A stretch of 30,836 nt of DNA from a virus: positions 737 through 31,572 of IMG/VR virus record IMGVR_UViG_3300030380_003465; one strand, 5' to 3'. A model generated the notes under the pieces. It worked only from the letters and a program-made list of their open reading frames with translations, ran no database searches and was not told the origin of the DNA. Position 1 is the stretch's first letter. The number at the start of each line of letters is the position of its first letter. A program made the translations under genes and the position numbers. Below, piece after piece: positions 8,233 through 23,453 of this stretch.

Positions 8233-10167
8233 ATGTCGGATAAACTACCGTCAATAGAAGATTTCACCATTGTTGGTGATCTTCCATCAGTTGACGACTT
8301 AATAACTGAAGAAAAATTACCCTCATTGGACGAGTTCATTGAGAAAGAGGACGAAGATGAAGTAGAAGATACTGCACCTTGTTCTATAGAAGAGAATATA
8401 ACAGAGAAAGAAAAACAAGATTTAACAGAGATTTTACGTCTTATAAATGACGTAAGAAAAGATATTCCTGAGATTCCAGAGATAAAATCTTATGATGAAG
8501 AATTACAAAAAATATCAGAAAATATAGAAGAAGTCAGATCAGAGATTCCTGAAATTCCTGAAGTTAAATATTATGACAATGAGATAGAAACTGTTCACAA
8601 ATTACTTGATGATTTAAAAGAAGAGATAAATCGAAACGCTGCCGATATACCTGAAATTAAATATTATGATGAGCAGATTAATGAATTAGATGAAAAAATA
8701 AAAAATCTGCCAGAGATAAAACATTATGACAGTGATTTAACTTCTTTAAAAGAAGATATCATTGCAGTTAAAGAATCTATACCAGTATTTCCTAAATGGG
8801 TAAATGAAGTTAATGAAGTCCCTGATTTTTCATGGATTGGAAAAACATTTAGTGTCATTGATGATGATTTTGTAAAAGTAAATGATGGAATGGATTCGAT
8901 AAAAAATCGAATCAATAGAGAAGTTCAAGAAATTGCGGAAACATTTGAAGTTAAGGAATTTGAAAATAAAATAGAAGTAGAAAAAATTACAAAAAATTTA
9001 AAAGAGACTAAAGATAAAATTTTCAAAGAATTAAGAGAAGCGGCTTTAAAGATATGGGATCACCACCATGAATTTAAAGATGATGATCGTAAATTAAAAA
9101 AACAAATTCTTAGTCATTATAATGCTTTAAAACAGAAAGTAGATAGTGAAGTTAAAGAATTTAATCGTAAAAATTTAGAAACAAAAGATTTATCAAAAGG
9201 ATACTTTGATACATTAGCAGAAGAAATATCTAATCTTCCTATTCCAAAATATTATGATGATAATATTAAAAATATAGAAAAAGATGTTATTAAGTTAAAC
9301 AATCATCATGATTATAATACAACTAATATCACAGAGTTATATAAGATAGTTGAAGAATTAAAAGAAAAACAAGAGATATTAAAAGAGGAAGTAAATACTA
9401 GACCTATTCAACCAGATCCAAGTGAAGATAATACAGATCCTCTTACACCAACCAATCAAAATTTTGCAACTCATGAAGATCTAGCAGAACATTATAAACT
9501 GTTCGTAAACAGAATCCAACAACAATTATATACGATTGGTGGTGGTGGTGCAGGATTTATAAAAGATTTAGATGATGTTACTTTTGATAGTGGAATAGGC
9601 ACAAATAAATTATTAATTTATAATGGAAATAAATGGGTTGGTATTGCCAGCACAGCTTTAATAGGAAATATATCTGAAGTATCAGGTAATTTTAACGTTG
9701 CAGGAAACATAACTGCAACAGCAGCCACATTTACTGGAAACGTTACGGTTGGTGGAACTATCACATATGATGATGTAACATTTTTAGATTCGGTAGGAGT
9801 TGCAACTGCTAGAAGTGGTTTAGATGTTGGTGGTGGAAGTATTACTCCGATTATATCAATTCAAGCAGCAACTGATACAACTACAACCACATCAGTATCT
9901 ACAATTGATAGTTTCAGCAAATCAACGTTTAGATCAGCTCAATATCAAATACAAATAACACAGGGATCTAATTATCATGTTACAACTTTGAATGTTTTAC
10001 ATGACGGGTCAACAGTGTTTTTAAATGAGTTTGGAACGATAAGGACAGGTGCATCTCTTGCATCTTTTGATGCTGATATTAGTTCTGATAATGTAAGAGT
10101 TAGAGCAACTCCAACCACGGATTCATCCACTGTTTTTAAATTAACAAAAACCCTAACTAGAGTATGA
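8233..10167 (+). CDS. Coiled-coil, fibre-like virion protein, 644 aa
   Basis: No homologue recognised with certainty, but the architecture is clear. Residues 5-35 hold three short motifs of the form LPS-x-x-[DE]-[FL] exactly 12 residues apart. Residues 78-190 repeat an IPEIK-YYD-like unit (near 78, 105, 139 and 159), separated by charged helices; another LPIPKYYDD appears near residue 336. Residues 60-400 are strongly charged and helical, compatible with long trimeric coiled coils. After a Pro/Asp-rich hinge (about 394-408), the C-terminal 170 residues turn Gly/Thr-rich and beta-like, with TATAATFTGNVTVGGTITYD and a final module (FRSAQYQIQITQGSNYHVTT ... VLHDGSTVFLNEFG) that I know from marine phage fibre and structural proteins. 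A fibre, whisker or neck-attached structural role is inferred. No good ribosome site precedes the ATG. Confidence 0.8.
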   Translation: MSDKLPSIEDFTIVGDLPSVDDLITEEKLPSLDEFIEKEDEDEVEDTAPCSIEENITEKEKQDLTEILRLINDVRKDIPEIPEIKSYDEELQKISENIEEVRSEIPEIPEVKYYDNEIETVHKLLDDLKEEINRNAADIPEIKYYDEQINELDEKIKNLPEIKHYDSDLTSLKEDIIAVKESIPVFPKWVNEVNEVPDFSWIGKTFSVIDDDFVKVNDGMDSIKNRINREVQEIAETFEVKEFENKIEVEKITKNLKETKDKIFKELREAALKIWDHHHEFKDDDRKLKKQILSHYNALKQKVDSEVKEFNRKNLETKDLSKGYFDTLAEEISNLPIPKYYDDNIKNIEKDVIKLNNHHDYNTTNITELYKIVEELKEKQEILKEEVNTRPIQPDPSEDNTDPLTPTNQNFATHEDLAEHYKLFVNRIQQQLYTIGGGGAGFIKDLDDVTFDSGIGTNKLLIYNGNKWVGIASTALIGNISEVSGNFNVAGNITATAATFTGNVTVGGTITYDDVTFLDSVGVATARSGLDVGGGSITPIISIQAATDTTTTTSVSTIDSFSKSTFRSAQYQIQITQGSNYHVTTLNVLHDGSTVFLNEFGTIRTGASLASFDADISSDNVRVRATPTTDSSTVFKLTKTLTRV

Positions 10168-10193
10168 AGACTTTTAAGGAATTCTTACAAGAG
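10164..10193 (+). other. Predicted capsid-targeting sequence, cleaved after Glu10
   Basis: Codons 1-10 encode MKTFKEFLQE. The likely gp21 cut lies between Glu10 and Gln11 (L-Q-E|Q). The T4 targeting peptide is also ten residues long and also begins MKT with an aromatic residue at position 4. Confidence 0.6.
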
Positions 10194-10523
10194 CAACCAA
10201 CAATGTCGGGGGGAAATCCTCAAGCATATAGTCAGGATGCTGATGATAGTGGCCCTGTTGCCGGTCATGATAAAAGACTATTTCCTCAAGATATAGATCT
10301 TTTAGATCAAGGATTCCAAACTGCTGCAGAGACTGGAGAAAATCGTTATAACACATTTTCAAATGTGTATCCAGTTATGAGAGTATCGCTTTCAAATAAT
10401 CAAGGTGATGGGCCTTCAATAGATAGTATGGTTGCAGCATCAAAGAAATTTGTTAATATAGAGGCAGCAAAAACTGCAGAAAGAATTAAAAAAACCTATC
10501 AACAATTCATGGGATACAGATGA
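10164..10523 (+). CDS. Candidate packaged head protein with capsid-targeting N-terminus, 119 aa
   Basis: Starts by ATGA overlap with the 644-aa gene and overlaps the next gene by 4 bases. Residues 1-10 (MKTFKEFLQE) closely resemble the T4 capsid-targeting sequence of internal proteins (MKTYQEFIAE), and L-Q-E fits the [LI]-x-E cleavage consensus of the prohead protease gp21, so a cut after Glu10 is predicted. The predicted mature start QPT equals that predicted for gp23 here, and SGPVAGHD (residues 29-36) matches SGPVAGFD near the gp23 mature N-terminus at similar spacing. The rest (FPQDIDLLDQGFQTAAETGE, then NVYPVMRVSL) is soluble and mixed in composition, with a helical, basic C-terminus. 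No enzyme motif is visible. Head localisation is an inference from the N-terminus. Confidence 0.75.
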   Translation: MKTFKEFLQEQPTMSGGNPQAYSQDADDSGPVAGHDKRLFPQDIDLLDQGFQTAAETGENRYNTFSNVYPVMRVSLSNNQGDGPSIDSMVAASKKFVNIEAAKTAERIKKTYQQFMGYR

Positions 10524-10549
10524 AAAGTTTAGATCGTTTTATAGAAGAG
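10520..10549 (+). other. Predicted capsid-targeting sequence, cleaved after Glu10
   Basis: Codons 1-10 encode MKSLDRFIEE followed by Ala-Ala. I-E-E|A satisfies the T4 gp21 consensus [LI]-x-E|[A/G] exactly. This is weaker at positions 3-6 than in the neighbouring gene but the length and cut position are the same. Confidence 0.55.
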
Positions 10550-11170
10550 GCAGCAAAAAGTGTCTCTCCAAAAAAATGTCCACCCGGATCATATTATTGT
10601 TTTGATGAGAAAAAATGCAAAAAAATACCCGGAGGATACCACGTTGGTAGAGGTGGGTTTTTAGAACCTGACTCTAAAAAGAAAAATGGAAATGGAGGTA
10701 ACGGTAATGGAAATGGAAACGGAAATGGCAATGGAAATGGCAACGGTAATGGATCTGGAAATGGTAATGGCTCTGGTAATGGTGGGAACGGCGGCTCTGG
10801 TAATGGTGGGGGTGGCGGCGGTGGAATTGGCGAGGAGGTAGTAAACTTACCACTTCATGTTATAATTCCAAAATCTCAAGTTGAATTTAATCTAGGACTC
10901 ATGTTTAAAGAGAGTTTAGATCAAGATACGGGAATGTTGTTCATATTTAAAGAGAATGGTGAAAAATATTTTCATATGAAAAATACAGTCATTCCTTTAG
11001 ATGTTGCTTTTATTGACGAGCAAGGTTATGTTGCTAATATCAAAGAATTATATCCTTTAAAAACAACTGCAATTCCATCAGAATGTAATGCCAGATATGC
11101 TCTTGAAGTTAATCGTGGTTGGTTTGAAAGAAATAATGTGAAAATAGGGGATAAAGTTTTAGATATATAA
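10520..11170 (+). CDS. DUF192-domain protein with capsid-targeting N-terminus and Asn-Gly linker
   Basis: 216 aa in four parts. Residues 1-10 (MKSLDRFIEE) resemble the T4 capsid-targeting peptide and end in I-E-E followed by Ala, which fits gp21 cleavage after Glu10. Residues 20-33 hold three cysteines, C20-x6-C27-x5-C33, in a CPPGSYYCF context. Residues 56-102 are almost pure Asn, Gly and Ser, a flexible linker. Residues about 115-214 form a DUF192 (COG1430-like) domain: FIFKENGEKYFHMKNTVIPL, then DVAFIDEQGYV, and ALEVNRGWFERNNVKIGDKV, the three blocks typical of that family. DUF192 proteins are small beta-rich proteins of uncertain function. The gene is coupled to its neighbour by ATGA, and both start with the same kind of peptide, so joint delivery into the head is inferred. 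Confidence 0.82.
   Translation: MKSLDRFIEEAAKSVSPKKCPPGSYYCFDEKKCKKIPGGYHVGRGGFLEPDSKKKNGNGGNGNGNGNGNGNGNGNGNGSGNGNGSGNGGNGGSGNGGGGGGGIGEEVVNLPLHVIIPKSQVEFNLGLMFKESLDQDTGMLFIFKENGEKYFHMKNTVIPLDVAFIDEQGYVANIKELYPLKTTAIPSECNARYALEVNRGWFERNNVKIGDKVLDI
10685..10825 (+). repeat. In-frame Asn-Gly hexanucleotide repeat tract
   Basis: About 47 codons dominated by a 6-base unit (AATGGA and synonymous variants AATGGT, AACGGT, AATGGC), ending in Gly codons. It encodes the flexible linker of the DUF192 protein. Codons vary at the third base, so the tract has been kept at protein level and is less slippage-prone than a perfect repeat. It is also a local GC-rich island. Confidence 0.9.
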
Positions 11171-11774: not shown

Positions 11775-12161
11775 ATGACACCATCTCAAATTTCAGCATT
11801 AGAACATTGTGGTATCAAAGTTGAAGATGCCACTGGAGACATTAAGTTTCGTGAATTCGAGTTCATTGATATAATTAAAACAGAACCACTTAAATCACCA
11901 AAATCTAATATTCAATACACAGAATATCAAGAAGCAACAAAGCTTCCAGATTATAATAAAGTAGGAAATATAATAGACGTATACTTAGCATGGAGAGGAT
12001 CAAGTTACATGATCAAAATGTTCTTCCCATCAGTCAAAAAACCATCCCGTAGAGAAGTCCAGATACAGATGCAGAAAGTGTATCCCGGTGCTAAACTCTA
12101 TAATTATCAGATATCCAATCATGACCCCGGAGCACCAATCCTCCAGACAACAAGAGGATAA
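11775..12161 (+). CDS. Conserved hypothetical protein, 128 aa
   Basis: A soluble protein with no membrane segment. It has a compact alpha/beta-looking core: NIIDVYLAWRGSSYMIKMFF, then REVQIQMQKVYPGAKLYNYQ, ending DPGAPILQTTRG. The 'VYPGA...Y...PG.P' ending resembles short proteins seen near the large terminase in cyanophages; I do not know a function. It precedes gp17 and is overlapped at its 3' end by a 43-codon frame in another phase. Confidence 0.7.
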   Translation: MTPSQISALEHCGIKVEDATGDIKFREFEFIDIIKTEPLKSPKSNIQYTEYQEATKLPDYNKVGNIIDVYLAWRGSSYMIKMFFPSVKKPSRREVQIQMQKVYPGAKLYNYQISNHDPGAPILQTTRG

Positions 12162-19534: not shown

Positions 19535-20137
19535 ATGGCTTTAAGAACTGTCGGGACAGGGGCATCACTACCAATAAAAGTGGGTGTAGCGCAGACATCT
19601 TCGTTTTTCACAGTGCAATCAGGTTACATGCGTGTAGTCGCAAAAGGATCTGGTGCACATGTCACTATTGGAACCGATGCTAGTGCAGCAATAACTGATT
19701 TGTATATTCATGCAGGCCCCGAAGGTGAAACTTTATCAATGACTAAGGCATCGCAAAGAGTTGTTGGTATAAGCACTGGAACAACAACTGTTCTCACTGC
19801 ACCTGAAGGAACACATATGCCATTTGTTCCCGGTGACATCGTAACAGTTGAATTTGGTAGTAATGCATCTGTTGATACTAATTACAGTGCAAAACTAACT
19901 GGTGGAGTATCAGTTCTTTCAGTTGATAATAACATTCCAAATGTTATATCAGATAACTTTGCTCGCAGTAACATTACTGTTGCAGCAGATACATCGGGTA
20001 TTATCACAGCATTTAATTCAGCAGCAGATTCCACTGTAAGAAAAGTTTTAAAACTATCTTGCATTGCTGCAACGGGTGAAGGTGCTGCTAATAGTGTATT
20101 CCATTTTCAACAAGTTCAAACTACAGGTAGTGCGTAA
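19535..20137 (+). CDS. Beta-rich structural protein at the gp68 position, 200 aa
   Basis: Lies between gp67 and gp21 where T4 has gp68, but the sequence does not look like a core protein: no capsid-targeting start and no acidic or helical character. It is rich in Gly, Thr, Ser and Val with predicted strands (TVQSGYMRVVAKGSGAHVTI, MPFVPGDIVTVEFGSNASVD), like virion surface or decoration proteins. T4-like cyanophages encode a structural protein here, as far as I remember. A head-decoration role is an inference from position, composition and a perfect late promoter. Its stop shares a base with the gp21 start (TAATG). Confidence 0.7.
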   Translation: MALRTVGTGASLPIKVGVAQTSSFFTVQSGYMRVVAKGSGAHVTIGTDASAAITDLYIHAGPEGETLSMTKASQRVVGISTGTTTVLTAPEGTHMPFVPGDIVTVEFGSNASVDTNYSAKLTGGVSVLSVDNNIPNVISDNFARSNITVAADTSGIITAFNSAADSTVRKVLKLSCIAATGEGAANSVFHFQQVQTTGSA

Positions 20138-20787
20138 TGAAACTGATTAGAGAAGAAATCGAAACCGTTGAATTTCTTGTCGAACAAAAGAACGGCAAAA
20201 AATCAATGTATATCGAAGGTGTATTCTTACAAGGAAACATTAAAAACCGTAATGGTAGAATGTATCCTATGGAAACTCTTCGTAAAGAGGTTTCTCGTTA
20301 TAATGAGAATCACATACAATCTGGAAGAGCACTTGGTGAATTAGGTCATCCCGAAGGCCCAACTGTTAATCTAGACCGTGTTTCCCATAAAATTGTATCA
20401 CTCAGAGAGAACGGATCCAATTTTATTGGAAAGGCAAAATTATTATCCACACCAATGGGTAAAATTGCGTCTTCTCTCGTCGAAGAAGGAGTCAAACTCG
20501 GAGTCTCATCTCGTGGAGTTGGATCTCTTAAAATGACAAGAGAAGGTATAAATGTAGTAGGAAGCGACTTTATGTTGGCGACTGCTGCAGATATAGTTGC
20601 CGACCCTTCCGCACCAGATGCTTTCGTTGAAGGAATCATGGAAGGAAAGGAGTGGGTATGGGATGGAGGAATACTTCGAGAGAAGTATGCTGAAAAAACA
20701 TACAAACAAATTAATACATTAACAGATCAGAAAAAATTAGATGAGCAGAAATTGAACCTGTTCAACGACTTTTTGTCTAATTTATAA
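20137..20787 (+). CDS. gp21: Prohead maturation protease gp21
   Basis: 216 aa, close to T4 (about 212). It is a serine protease of the herpesvirus-assemblin-like fold that cleaves capsid, core and internal proteins. The expected blocks are present: MYIEGVFLQGNIKNRNGRMY, ALGELGHPEGPTVNL with catalytic His71, and KLGVSSRGVGSLKM with the catalytic serine at 124 or 125; PSAPDAFVEGIME follows. T4 cleavage follows [LI]-x-E; the protein itself holds FLVE|Q (Glu16) and KLDE|Q near the C-terminus, possible self-processing sites. It is translationally coupled to the previous gene. Confidence 0.95.
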   Translation: MKLIREEIETVEFLVEQKNGKKSMYIEGVFLQGNIKNRNGRMYPMETLRKEVSRYNENHIQSGRALGELGHPEGPTVNLDRVSHKIVSLRENGSNFIGKAKLLSTPMGKIASSLVEEGVKLGVSSRGVGSLKMTREGINVVGSDFMLATAADIVADPSAPDAFVEGIMEGKEWVWDGGILREKYAEKTYKQINTLTDQKKLDEQKLNLFNDFLSNL

Positions 20788-20837: not shown

Positions 20838-21965
20838 ATGTCTCGTGGCACAAAATTACAAGAAATGGAAGTAAAGACACAGCAATCTAAATCCGCTGTC
20901 AATGCTAACGCCAAGCCAGGCGATCCAATGCCAAAACTTACAACAGGTGGAACACCACCAACATATGAAGATCTCGGAGGGCCAACTCCTGAGAATTATA
21001 GACCAGATGATGATTCGGCAAAAATCAAAGAGCCAGGCGGTTCCCTTAAACAAGTTAAGGATGTCGTTAACAAAGGTGCTAAAGGAGCAGACCCCATGAA
21101 GTCCGGTGGGAAAGGTTACAAGGAGGAAGAAGAGGTGGAACTCGAAGACCAGCAAGAAATTGTTTCTGAAGATGACGCTGCTACCGAAGAGGAAGTAGTT
21201 GCAGAAGAAGATCAAGTAACCGAAGAGCAAGTTGAAACTTATGACATCGATGATGATGTCAAAGCTTTACTTGGAGGAGAAGAACTCTCTGAAGAGTTTA
21301 AAAACAAAGCAAAAACAATCTTTGAGACTGCGCTCAAGTCTAAAGTTGCCGAAGTAAGGTCACTTTTAGAGCAGCAATACGAGGAAAAACTCGGACAAGA
21401 GATTGTTGAAGCAAAAGAGGAACTCTCAAGTAGAGTTGACTCATATCTTGAGTATGTCGCTGACGAATGGTTTACTGAAAACCAGTTAGCAGTAGAGACA
21501 GGACTCAAAGAAGAACTTACAGAATCATTCCTTGGTGGAATGAAAAGTCTTTTTGAAGAACATTATGTATCAATCCCTGAAGACAAATACGATGTGCTTG
21601 AGAGCATGGTAGAAAAACTTGATGACATGGAAACAAAACTCAATGAGCAAATTGAGAAGAATATTGGATTAAACAAACGTCTCGCAGAGTCGGTTGCCGA
21701 TGGTATTCTTGATGAAGTTTCTGAAGGGCTCGCGTCCACACAGAAAGAGAAGCTCGCTTCACTTGCCGAAAGTGTAGAGTTTGAAAGTGAATCCGAATAT
21801 CGTGAGAAGCTAGAGGTTTTAAGAGAATCATATTTCTCTTCAAAATCAACACCTTCATCAGCTAAAACTGAAACTTTATCTGAGGGAGTAGATAGTTCAC
21901 CTGAATCAGTTCAGGGTTCTATGAGTGCATACCTGAAAACACTTTCAGCATTTAGCAAAAACTGA
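20838..21965 (+). CDS. gp22: Prohead scaffold (major core) protein gp22
   Basis: 375 aa against about 269 in T4. Position between gp21 and gp23 and composition identify it: a low-complexity N-terminus, a very acidic segment (EEEEVELEDQQEIVSEDDAA) and a long helical, Glu/Lys-rich C-terminal two thirds (for example TEESFLGG-like turns and KLDDMETKLNEQIEKN). The scaffold is assembled inside the prohead and digested by gp21 to free space for DNA. Candidate cleavage points of the [LI]-x-E type include KLQE (Glu9), KLNE|Q and TLSE|G near the C-terminus. Codon usage has more C-ending codons than the neighbouring tail genes. Confidence 0.9.
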   Translation: MSRGTKLQEMEVKTQQSKSAVNANAKPGDPMPKLTTGGTPPTYEDLGGPTPENYRPDDDSAKIKEPGGSLKQVKDVVNKGAKGADPMKSGGKGYKEEEEVELEDQQEIVSEDDAATEEEVVAEEDQVTEEQVETYDIDDDVKALLGGEELSEEFKNKAKTIFETALKSKVAEVRSLLEQQYEEKLGQEIVEAKEELSSRVDSYLEYVADEWFTENQLAVETGLKEELTESFLGGMKSLFEEHYVSIPEDKYDVLESMVEKLDDMETKLNEQIEKNIGLNKRLAESVADGILDEVSEGLASTQKEKLASLAESVEFESESEYREKLEVLRESYFSSKSTPSSAKTETLSEGVDSSPESVQGSMSAYLKTLSAFSKN

Positions 21966-22010: not shown

Positions 22011-22181
22011 ATGTTTCAATCAGAATCATTGCAGGAAAAGTGGAAGCCACTTCTTAACTATGAGGGCCTTGATGAAATCAAAGATCCCCATCGTAAAGCA
22101 GTTACCGCTGTCCTGTTAGAAAATCAAGAAAAATTCCTCAGAGAGGAGCAAGCATTTACATCAGGAATCAACCTGATGGAA
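22011..22181 (+). other. Predicted gp23 propeptide (codons 1-57)
   Basis: The first 57 codons encode the expected delta-domain-like propeptide removed by gp21. The predicted boundary is L55-M56-E57|Q58-P59-T60, and the corresponding T4 site is FLTE|AE. Confidence 0.6.
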
Positions 22182-23453
22182 CAACCAACTGTTAATACAA
22201 ACACTGGTGCTAATGCTGGTTTCAGTGCTGGTGCAACTGCATCTGGCCCTGTCGCTGGTTTTGACCCTGTATTAATCAGTCTTATCCGTCGTTCTATGCC
22301 TAACTTGGTCGCATATGACCTAGCAGGTGTTCAACCAATGAGCGGCCCAACTGGACTTATCTTCGCGATGAGATCCAAGTATAACACCATGTCCGGTGGA
22401 AGTTCTACAGAAACATTCTACAACGAAGTAGATTCTGCATTCTCCGGTCGTGACAGAGGAACTAACGCCGAAACAGGTTTTGTTGACGGTGCAGCTGGTA
22501 TGGGAACAACATCTGTTTCTGCTACTAACCCTGCAGTTCTTAACCCTGTATCATCTGCTGATTCCACATCCTACAGAGTAGGTCAAGGAATGAGAACAGA
22601 CGAGGCAGAAGCGTTGAATACTGGTCAAGATCAGTTCAACCAGATGGCATTCTCAATCGAGAAGATCACTGTTACTGCTAAGTCCAGAGCACTAAAGGCA
22701 GAGTATAGTTTAGAACTTGCTCAAGACCTTAAGGCAATCCACGGATTAAACGCAGAGGCAGAACTTGCTAACATCTTATCAACTGAGATACTTGCTGAGA
22801 TAAACAGAGAAGTTATCAGAACAATCTATAAGACTGCAGAGCAAGGTGCTGTTCAAAACGTTGCAACCGCTGGTATATTTGACTTAGACGTTGACTCCAA
22901 CGGTAGATGGTCAGTTGAGAAGTTCAAAGGACTACTCTTCCAGATCGAAAGAGATGCGAACGCAATTGCACAAAGAACTCGTAGAGGAAAGGGTAACATC
23001 ATCCTTTGTTCTGCTGACGTTGCTTCTGCTCTAACAATGGCTGGCGTTCTTGACTACACTCCTGCACTTAATGCTAACCTTAACGTTGATGACACCGGTA
23101 ATACATTTGCTGGAACATTACAAGGTAAGTTCAGAGTATACATCGACCCATATGCTGCTAACCTAACAGGTTCTGCATCTGGTGGTGCTGCTCCTACAGG
23201 TGGTAATCAATACTATGTTGTTGGTTACAAAGGAACATCTCCATACGATGCTGGATTGTTCTACTGCCCTTACGTTCCACTTCAGATGGTTCGTGCAGTG
23301 GGAGAAAATAGTTTCCAACCAAAAATCGGGTTTAAGACTCGTTATGGTATGGTTGCTAACCCATTCGCAGAAGGCACACAAGCAGGTCTTGGTTTCCTTA
23401 GTGTTAACTCAAACCGCTACTACAGACGTGTTGCTGTTAAAAACCTTATGTAA
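22011..23453 (+). CDS. gp23: Major capsid protein gp23
   Basis: 480 aa against about 521 in T4. The propeptide WKPLLNYEGLDEIKDPHRKA followed by ENQEK is the hallmark start. Core blocks are unmistakable: LIRRSMPNLVAYDLAGVQPM, SGPTGLIFAMRSKY, AKSRALKAEYSLELAQDLKA, ILSTEILAEINREVIRTIYK, FQIERDANAIAQRTRRGKGN, GKFRVYIDPYA and PKIGFKTRYGMVANPFAEGT. The predicted gp21 cut is after Glu57 (L-M-E|QPT), close to the T4 site after residue 65. The segment that T4 has between core blocks is shorter here. AAAAGG at 21993-21998 is the ribosome site. Codons are markedly C-ended, as expected of the most abundant protein. I see no clear late octamer directly before it, so it may be read from the gp22 promoter. 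Confidence 0.98.
   Translation: MFQSESLQEKWKPLLNYEGLDEIKDPHRKAVTAVLLENQEKFLREEQAFTSGINLMEQPTVNTNTGANAGFSAGATASGPVAGFDPVLISLIRRSMPNLVAYDLAGVQPMSGPTGLIFAMRSKYNTMSGGSSTETFYNEVDSAFSGRDRGTNAETGFVDGAAGMGTTSVSATNPAVLNPVSSADSTSYRVGQGMRTDEAEALNTGQDQFNQMAFSIEKITVTAKSRALKAEYSLELAQDLKAIHGLNAEAELANILSTEILAEINREVIRTIYKTAEQGAVQNVATAGIFDLDVDSNGRWSVEKFKGLLFQIERDANAIAQRTRRGKGNIILCSADVASALTMAGVLDYTPALNANLNVDDTGNTFAGTLQGKFRVYIDPYAANLTGSASGGAAPTGGNQYYVVGYKGTSPYDAGLFYCPYVPLQMVRAVGENSFQPKIGFKTRYGMVANPFAEGTQAGLGFLSVNSNRYYRRVAVKNLM

Follow-up and report, generated by a model that had tools for sequence, protein, structure and literature searches.

Candidate capsid-targeting peptides and proposed modular head cargo in a T4-like cyanophage

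Two neighboring genes of a T4-like cyanophage, orf119 and orf216, open with ten-residue peptides that resemble the capsid-targeting sequence (CTS) of T4 head proteins. The CTS and its trimming by gp21 are classical in T4. Comparison with related phages makes it quite likely that both products are packaged in the prohead and trimmed by gp21. The best explanation for the whole is that the cargo specified by the island housing the two genes is probably destined for the head and relies on a modular form of the T4 capsid-targeting system. In the papers that the search returned, no named cyanophage protein was given a CTS, and the two terms occurred together only in a T4 review.

Candidate capsid-targeting peptides in the gp16-gp17 island

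The window (the whole 30.8-kb stretch of viral DNA that was analyzed) comes from a Kyanoviridae-type T4-like phage, judging by its PHROGs and Pfam gene content. It runs through gp13, gp14, gp15, gp16, the island, gp17, gp18, gp19, gp20, gp21, gp22 and gp23, with uvsY, uvsW, a late sigma factor and an SbcD/SbcC pair downstream of gp23. The first-pass annotation had recognized a T4-like phage, and gp21, gp22 and gp23 are indeed all encoded in the window (Table 1). Within the island, orf119 and orf216 are preceded by a fiber-like gene and followed by a phrog_605 gene and orf128. The orf119 and orf216 reading frames share 4 bases, an ATGA coupling.

Table 1. Features of the window (all on the + strand)
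Feature	Coordinates	Strand	Basis
orf119 (119 aa; stop codon ends at 10523), CTS-bearing small protein with gp23 N-fist-like mature end	10164..10523	+	ORF, homologues, gp23-arm HMM
Candidate capsid-targeting propeptide of orf119, MKTFKEFLQE, cut after LQE	10164..10193	+	
gp23 N-fist-like mature N-terminus of orf119, QPTMSGGNPQAYSQDADDSGPVAGHDKRLF	10194..10283	+	gp23-arm HMM
orf216 (216 aa; stop codon ends at 11170): CTS, cysteine module, GN-rich linker, second site, DUF192	10520..11170	+	
Candidate capsid-targeting propeptide of orf216, MKSLDRFIEE, cut after IEE	10520..10549	+	
Cysteine module KCPPGSYYCFDEKKCKKIPGGYHVGRGGFLEPD, small beta module in model	10574..10672	+	relatives, AlphaFold
GIGE, second candidate gp21 site, linker/DUF192 boundary	10823..10834	+	
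DUF192 (PF02643), orf216 residues 114-213	10859..11158	+	Pfam 6.3e-27
orf128, VRxPxKTGN polyprotein module as its own gene	11775..12161	+	phrog_10346
QYTEYQEA in orf128, CTS-like internal site YTEYQE↓A ahead of module	11910..11933	+	
gp21 prohead protease (Peptidase S77)	20137..20787	+	Pfam 4.3e-34, phrog_207
gp22 scaffold, candidate CTS partner	20838..21965	+	phrog_237 8.9e-114
gp23 major capsid protein, predicted cut LME↓QPT	22011..23453	+	phrog_138 1.8e-171
gp23 mature N-terminus (N-fist/arm), resembled by orf119	22182..22274	+	

What do the two peptides have in common with the T4 signal? Experiments on the T4 CTS indicate that residues 4 and 7 mainly target, while residues 8 and 10 govern processing; an Asp at position 10 stops processing and leaves targeting intact (PMC9026906). 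These positions are F4, F7, L8 and E10 in orf119 and L4, F7, I8 and E10 in orf216. Translation bears out the earlier observation that coupled neighbors open with ten-residue peptides ending in [LI]-x-E (MKTFKEFLQE↓QPTM and MKSLDRFIEE↓AAKS, arrows marking predicted cuts); the locus as first annotated ended at 10549, the final base of the orf216 peptide. A strict CTS pattern, M(M)[KRNSTD]x0-2[FYLIM]xxF[LIVMFQ]xE, is found in only two of the window's 34 ORFs, orf119 and orf216, side by side. The first-pass annotation had also proposed searching related phages for an N-terminal motif of this kind, and the motif proved to be enriched at N-termini: in nine other cyanophage genomes and contigs, the strict pattern occurs at 14/1589 N-terminal methionines (the near-identical contig G001 being counted among the 14) versus 2/6163 internal ones. 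On this enrichment, a chance likeness of the two peptides is rejected. Among 24 N-termini that match the pattern in its hydrophobic positions, glutamate occupies the cut position in 14. Strict CTSs also begin two proteins without known function, SSM2_065 (L101:2523-3104; MKTLGQFLAE↓AYDK) and one in the AG345L05 genome (32221-32739; MKTFKEFLEE↓SSLS).

The same signal is found on an enzyme. The cyanophage NMNAT/cytidylyltransferase (T4-GC 190), including the S-SM2 copy, starts MK(S/N)xxxFLxE↓A, and K2, F7, L8 and E10 are invariant in all 18 distinct cyanophage NMNAT N-termini. Jumbo-phage NMNAT homologues align from about query residue 100, leaving the N-terminal extension unmatched. In related phages, this conservation shows selection on the CTS. 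NMNAT has been detected by mass spectrometry in the virions of several cyanophages (PMC9602691, PMC10665884), and the S-SM1 virion was found to contain the GC190 cytidylyltransferase (PMC3037559). The authors of the S-SCSM1 and S-CREM2 studies could not distinguish packaging of NMNAT from co-purification or contamination (PMC9602691, PMC10665884); the apparent CTS on NMNAT argues for packaging. In the deposited S-SCSM1 record (MK867354.2), virion-protein labels are attached to gp029, the CTS-bearing NMNAT and the N-fist-like gp275. These labels concern S-SCSM1 relatives rather than the window phage or orf119, and 47 tagged proteins were counted in the record versus the 45 virion proteins by mass spectrometry stated in the paper. 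The first-pass claim that the window pair is packaged and trimmed by gp21 is strengthened by the conserved CTS, the retained cut site and the virion labels of island relatives, evidence that is comparative throughout.

Two further observations concern other genes. The fiber-like protein (window 8233-10167) has three LPS-type repeats in residues 5-39 (LPSIEDFTIVG, LPSVDDLITEE and LPSLDEFIEKE), the third closely resembling SLDRFIEE of the orf216 CTS, and contig G002 has similar repeats; these are possibly short motifs for the partner of the CTS. The gp23 of contig G015 lies in three separate pieces (L271, L274, L275), as though broken up by inserts or frame breaks.

orf119 and the N-fist of gp23

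Searches of Pfam and PHROGs returned nothing for orf119, whose mature form is acidic (pI 5.2). Among its homologues, the cut site is retained while the propeptide ahead of it is swapped. An alternative propeptide class, MxIDRVIxxIRxLxE, stands ahead of the same mature protein (L016, L010, S-SKS1), so homology through the propeptide alone is rejected. This class precedes PTN-type mature ends in L016, L010, L011:3932, L020:6016 and the AG345L05 genome at 56821, and PTN-type ends are common to it and the MKxFKxFLxE class. The first-pass annotation had held that homologues without the first ten residues would speak against cleavage and packaging. Such homologues occur on three contigs (L020-L022), yet their first residues are those predicted for the mature protein, which weakens the necessity of the CTS but not the cleavage model. 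Since these homologues, S-SCSM1 gp029 and many cysteine-module proteins have no CTS, other targeting must exist.

The mature end of orf119 resembles that of the major capsid protein. In T4, the N-fist is formed by residues 66-91, the first 26 of mature gp23 (PMC7136217). Against an HMM of 15 gp23 arms, built without the window phage's own gp23, orf119 scores 32.4 bits (E 4e-8), and the best of 2000 shuffles reaches 9.1 bits. A second program matches gp23 queries to orf119 homologues over the same residues (G005, G010). The likeness includes the cut site: the predicted maturation site of cyanophage gp23 commonly reads ...LxE↓(A/Q/T)PT(N/M)...GPVAGFDPVL. It is also genome-specific, as in S-SM2, where gp23 reads QPTNAVGNGGYTSSGGQTVAGFD and SSM2_108 reads TPTNSVGNGGYTSAGGQTVAGYD. 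Over 17 genome pairs, 11 of them from a second family (T4-GC 426/phrog_696 and similar), similarity to the phage's own gp23 is higher than in any of 200,000 permutations (p about 5e-6); for orf119-type pairs alone, p = 0.02, and three pairs lack an own-gp23 match (G013, P-SSM7 and ACG-2014a). A simple species-tree signal is an unlikely source of the match, since the proteins compared are paralogues from one and the same genome. Members of the second family mostly have no propeptide, begin exactly at the mature end or close to it, and often carry the annotation “major head protein”; a tblastn search from the member in S-SCSM1 matched 308 phage records, some of them gp23 itself. Proteins other than gp23 that start with an N-fist are widespread in cyanophage records, many without a propeptide, and L103:14122-14307 and the T4-GC 426 genes (L325-L333) are such proteins annotated “major head protein.”

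What might an N-fist do on a small protein? With a probability only a little short of even, orf119 is a capsid-lattice protein that occupies gp23 N-fist sites, for example at vertices or around the portal, where fists are disordered, as a cement or tether, its CTS serving only for prohead entry. The resemblance to the N-fist and the tracking of the phage's own gp23 point this way. So does the T4 structure, in which the N-fist touches four subunits and is disordered in the five facing the portal (PMC9958956, PMC7136217), as does the virion label (MK867354.2) on S-SCSM1 gp275, a member of the same-start family phrog_696. Against this, the remainder of orf119 has no known fold, its AlphaFold model is poor (pLDDT 54.5), and searching PDB sequences turned up only a single meaningless match (E 1.1) and no solved structure of such a protein. 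The acidic mature protein with its N-fist copy makes docking at least as favored as free, injectable cargo. A more tentative suggestion is that the products are ejected host-takeover or counter-defense proteins like T4 IPI and Alt. The island is accessory and variable, and an enzyme of several virion proteomes, NMNAT, bears the same CTS, but orf119 has no effector-like domain.

Modules and their junctions

The first-pass annotation had overlooked the GIGE site and DUF192 domain of orf216, as well as orf128, the polyprotein relatives and the match to gp23. The cysteine module of orf216 reads KCPPGSYYC...FLEPD; its AlphaFold model is moderate (core pLDDT about 83), and a PDB fold search with that model found no match (best E 2.2). 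The GN-rich linker (window 10679-10831) is a fast-changing tandem repeat whose length varies even between near-identical phages, giving 216 aa in the window and 214 aa in L014. Ahead of DUF192, the homologous junctions of relatives read GISE, GLGE and GMKE where orf216 has GIGE. DUF192 itself scores 94 bits versus a Pfam gathering cut-off of 27 and has PDB relatives 3pjy and 3m7a. The N-terminal piece of orf216 has a pI of 9.6, and the DUF192 piece a pI of 5.0. The orf128 module also lies inside S-SM2_109 and S-SCSM1 gp029, with more than 100 hits overall, and a CTS, MKSFSQFEE, is present on one orf128 relative (L023). S-SCSM1 gp030 (L102:14216-14536), a probable orf128 relative that is not labeled a virion protein, likewise has its own CTS (MKTFKQFMSE↓SVNI).

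The island's module families occur either as single CTS-bearing genes or as pieces of long multi-domain proteins. The cysteine module follows a CTS in L005 (MKEFDKFIEE↓AAAK) and L252 (MKQFNKFIEE↓AASK); elsewhere it starts a gene without a CTS (MKNGRCPAG...) or lies within long proteins. Up to about eight modules, including the cysteine module, DUF192, DUF6321 and the orf128 module, are chained in S-SM2 SSM2_109, Bellamy 123, SynMITS9220M01 097 and S-SCSM1 gp029, the last of which comprises a cysteine module, a VRxPAKTGN module and DUF6321 and has no CTS at its start. Similarly, the SWSNKYKK module stands behind a CTS in its own gene (MKTFKQFQE↓SWSNK) and is fused behind an orf119 homologue (FEEFRE↓SWSNK); it also lies inside P-TIM68_111 (KRMNE↓GWSDK). 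In L010, an orf119 homologue is joined to the cysteine module across FMGE↓AKESKKC. Whole CTS-like motifs also occur within polyproteins: SFQQFSE↓KCWK (L109), SYTEFQE↓KCWK (L140), FSQFMSE↓AKSAAWT (L165) and FGEFMAE↓GAAW (L180).

Are such sites characteristic of the junctions? Upstream contexts of 11 module families were collected from loci and genomes, with controls for 10 families. A glutamate lies no more than 7 residues away in 383/429 junctions, these being all junctions with at least 10 upstream residues. The residue at P3 of the junction glutamate is hydrophobic in 50-100% of cases per family, versus 8-32% for other glutamates in the same linkers, and P1' is mostly A, G, K, S or D. After clustering such that no pair of contexts shared more than 6 of 12 residues, an [LIVMF]xE ended in the last five residues of 158/201 junctions (79%) versus 61/1127 upstream control windows (5%). 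Module starts were placed by eye, several directly after E, and related contigs are not independent; the Fisher p of this test therefore overstates the result. E-rich linkers invite chance motifs, but the control windows were drawn from the same proteins. The strongest point of the result is that the module families have no visible homology to one another.

From their sequences, the modules look like a polyprotein processed by gp21. It is improbable that the E-x motifs are flexible acidic linkers of intact virion proteins and the N-terminal peptides unremoved amphipathic scaffold-binding helices: the linkers do abound in E and K, and the orf119 model has a helix at residues 4-9, but against this reading stand the hydrophobic P3 at junction glutamates, the exchange with single genes whose start coincides with the junction, and the same type of tripeptide ahead of the mature gp23 N-terminus. 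The chances are about even for a wider proposal, in which the head cargo of T4-like cyanophages consists of polyproteins of shuffled mini-domains, released in the prohead at CTS/gp21 sites, with some cargo plugging into the lattice through an N-fist matched to the phage's own gp23.

A proposed pathway and its implications

For modular head cargo we infer four steps: targeting, cleavage, docking and ejection. Through their ten-residue peptides, orf119 and orf216 would be recruited to the prohead core of gp22 and gp21. There, gp21 would cleave after [LIVMF]-x-E, trimming both proteins at residue 10. A second cut at GIGE would probably divide orf216 into a basic cysteine/GN-rich piece and the DUF192 domain, and orf128 may be cut once. 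In relatives, where the same modules are fused in long polyproteins, most junctions have a predicted site. Through its copy of the gp23 N-fist, mature orf119 probably docks in the lattice of the capsid. The two orf216 pieces would remain in the head, and the small basic modules, held with the DNA, may be ejected.

How does this compare with known systems? First, the pair resembles T4 IPI-IPIII and Alt in its ten-residue peptides, which end in [LI]-x-E and share with IPIII the residues for targeting and processing, in the presence of gp21, gp22 and gp23 in the phage, and in variable, non-conserved mature parts. The mature proteins themselves differ: orf119 is acidic and N-fist-like whereas the T4 internal proteins are basic, and the internal second site of orf216, the fused polyprotein relatives and the gp16-gp17 location also set the window apart. 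By its motif the pair would belong with the T4 internal proteins, with cleavage and location predicted and ejection possible. Second, phiKZ and SPN3US ejection proteins are also head-packaged and trimmed by a protease similar to gp21, which cleaves after a short motif whose last residue is E; some of their propeptides are cut several times (PMC10052503). Unlike the scheme proposed here, the protease takes off N-terminal propeptides there, and the portions of the phiKZ/SPN3US literature searched describe no case of several mature domains from one chain. Third, the N-fist of T4 gp23* likewise follows directly after a protease site, and cyanophage gp23 shares sequence and lineage-specific variants with orf119-type proteins, but the orf119 version sits on a small separate protein rather than the shell protein. 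Fourth, T4-GC 119/phrog_727 has the same cysteine module, GN linker, DUF192, VRxPxKTGN module and gp16-gp17 position; it is one fused chain, in contrast to the separate genes of the window, and is recorded without function.

What would modular head cargo mean for marine phages? If the proposal is correct, abundant proteins such as T4-GC 119, phrog_727, DUF6321 and phrog_696 would gain a function and boundaries, and the recurrence of NMNAT in cyanophage virions would be explained. Exact new N-termini are predicted, and these could be confirmed in existing raw mass spectra. Many “major head protein” records of N-fist-starting proteins would be wrong. An N-fist matched to the phage's own gp23 would, if true, be a novel mode of anchoring a protein to the capsid.
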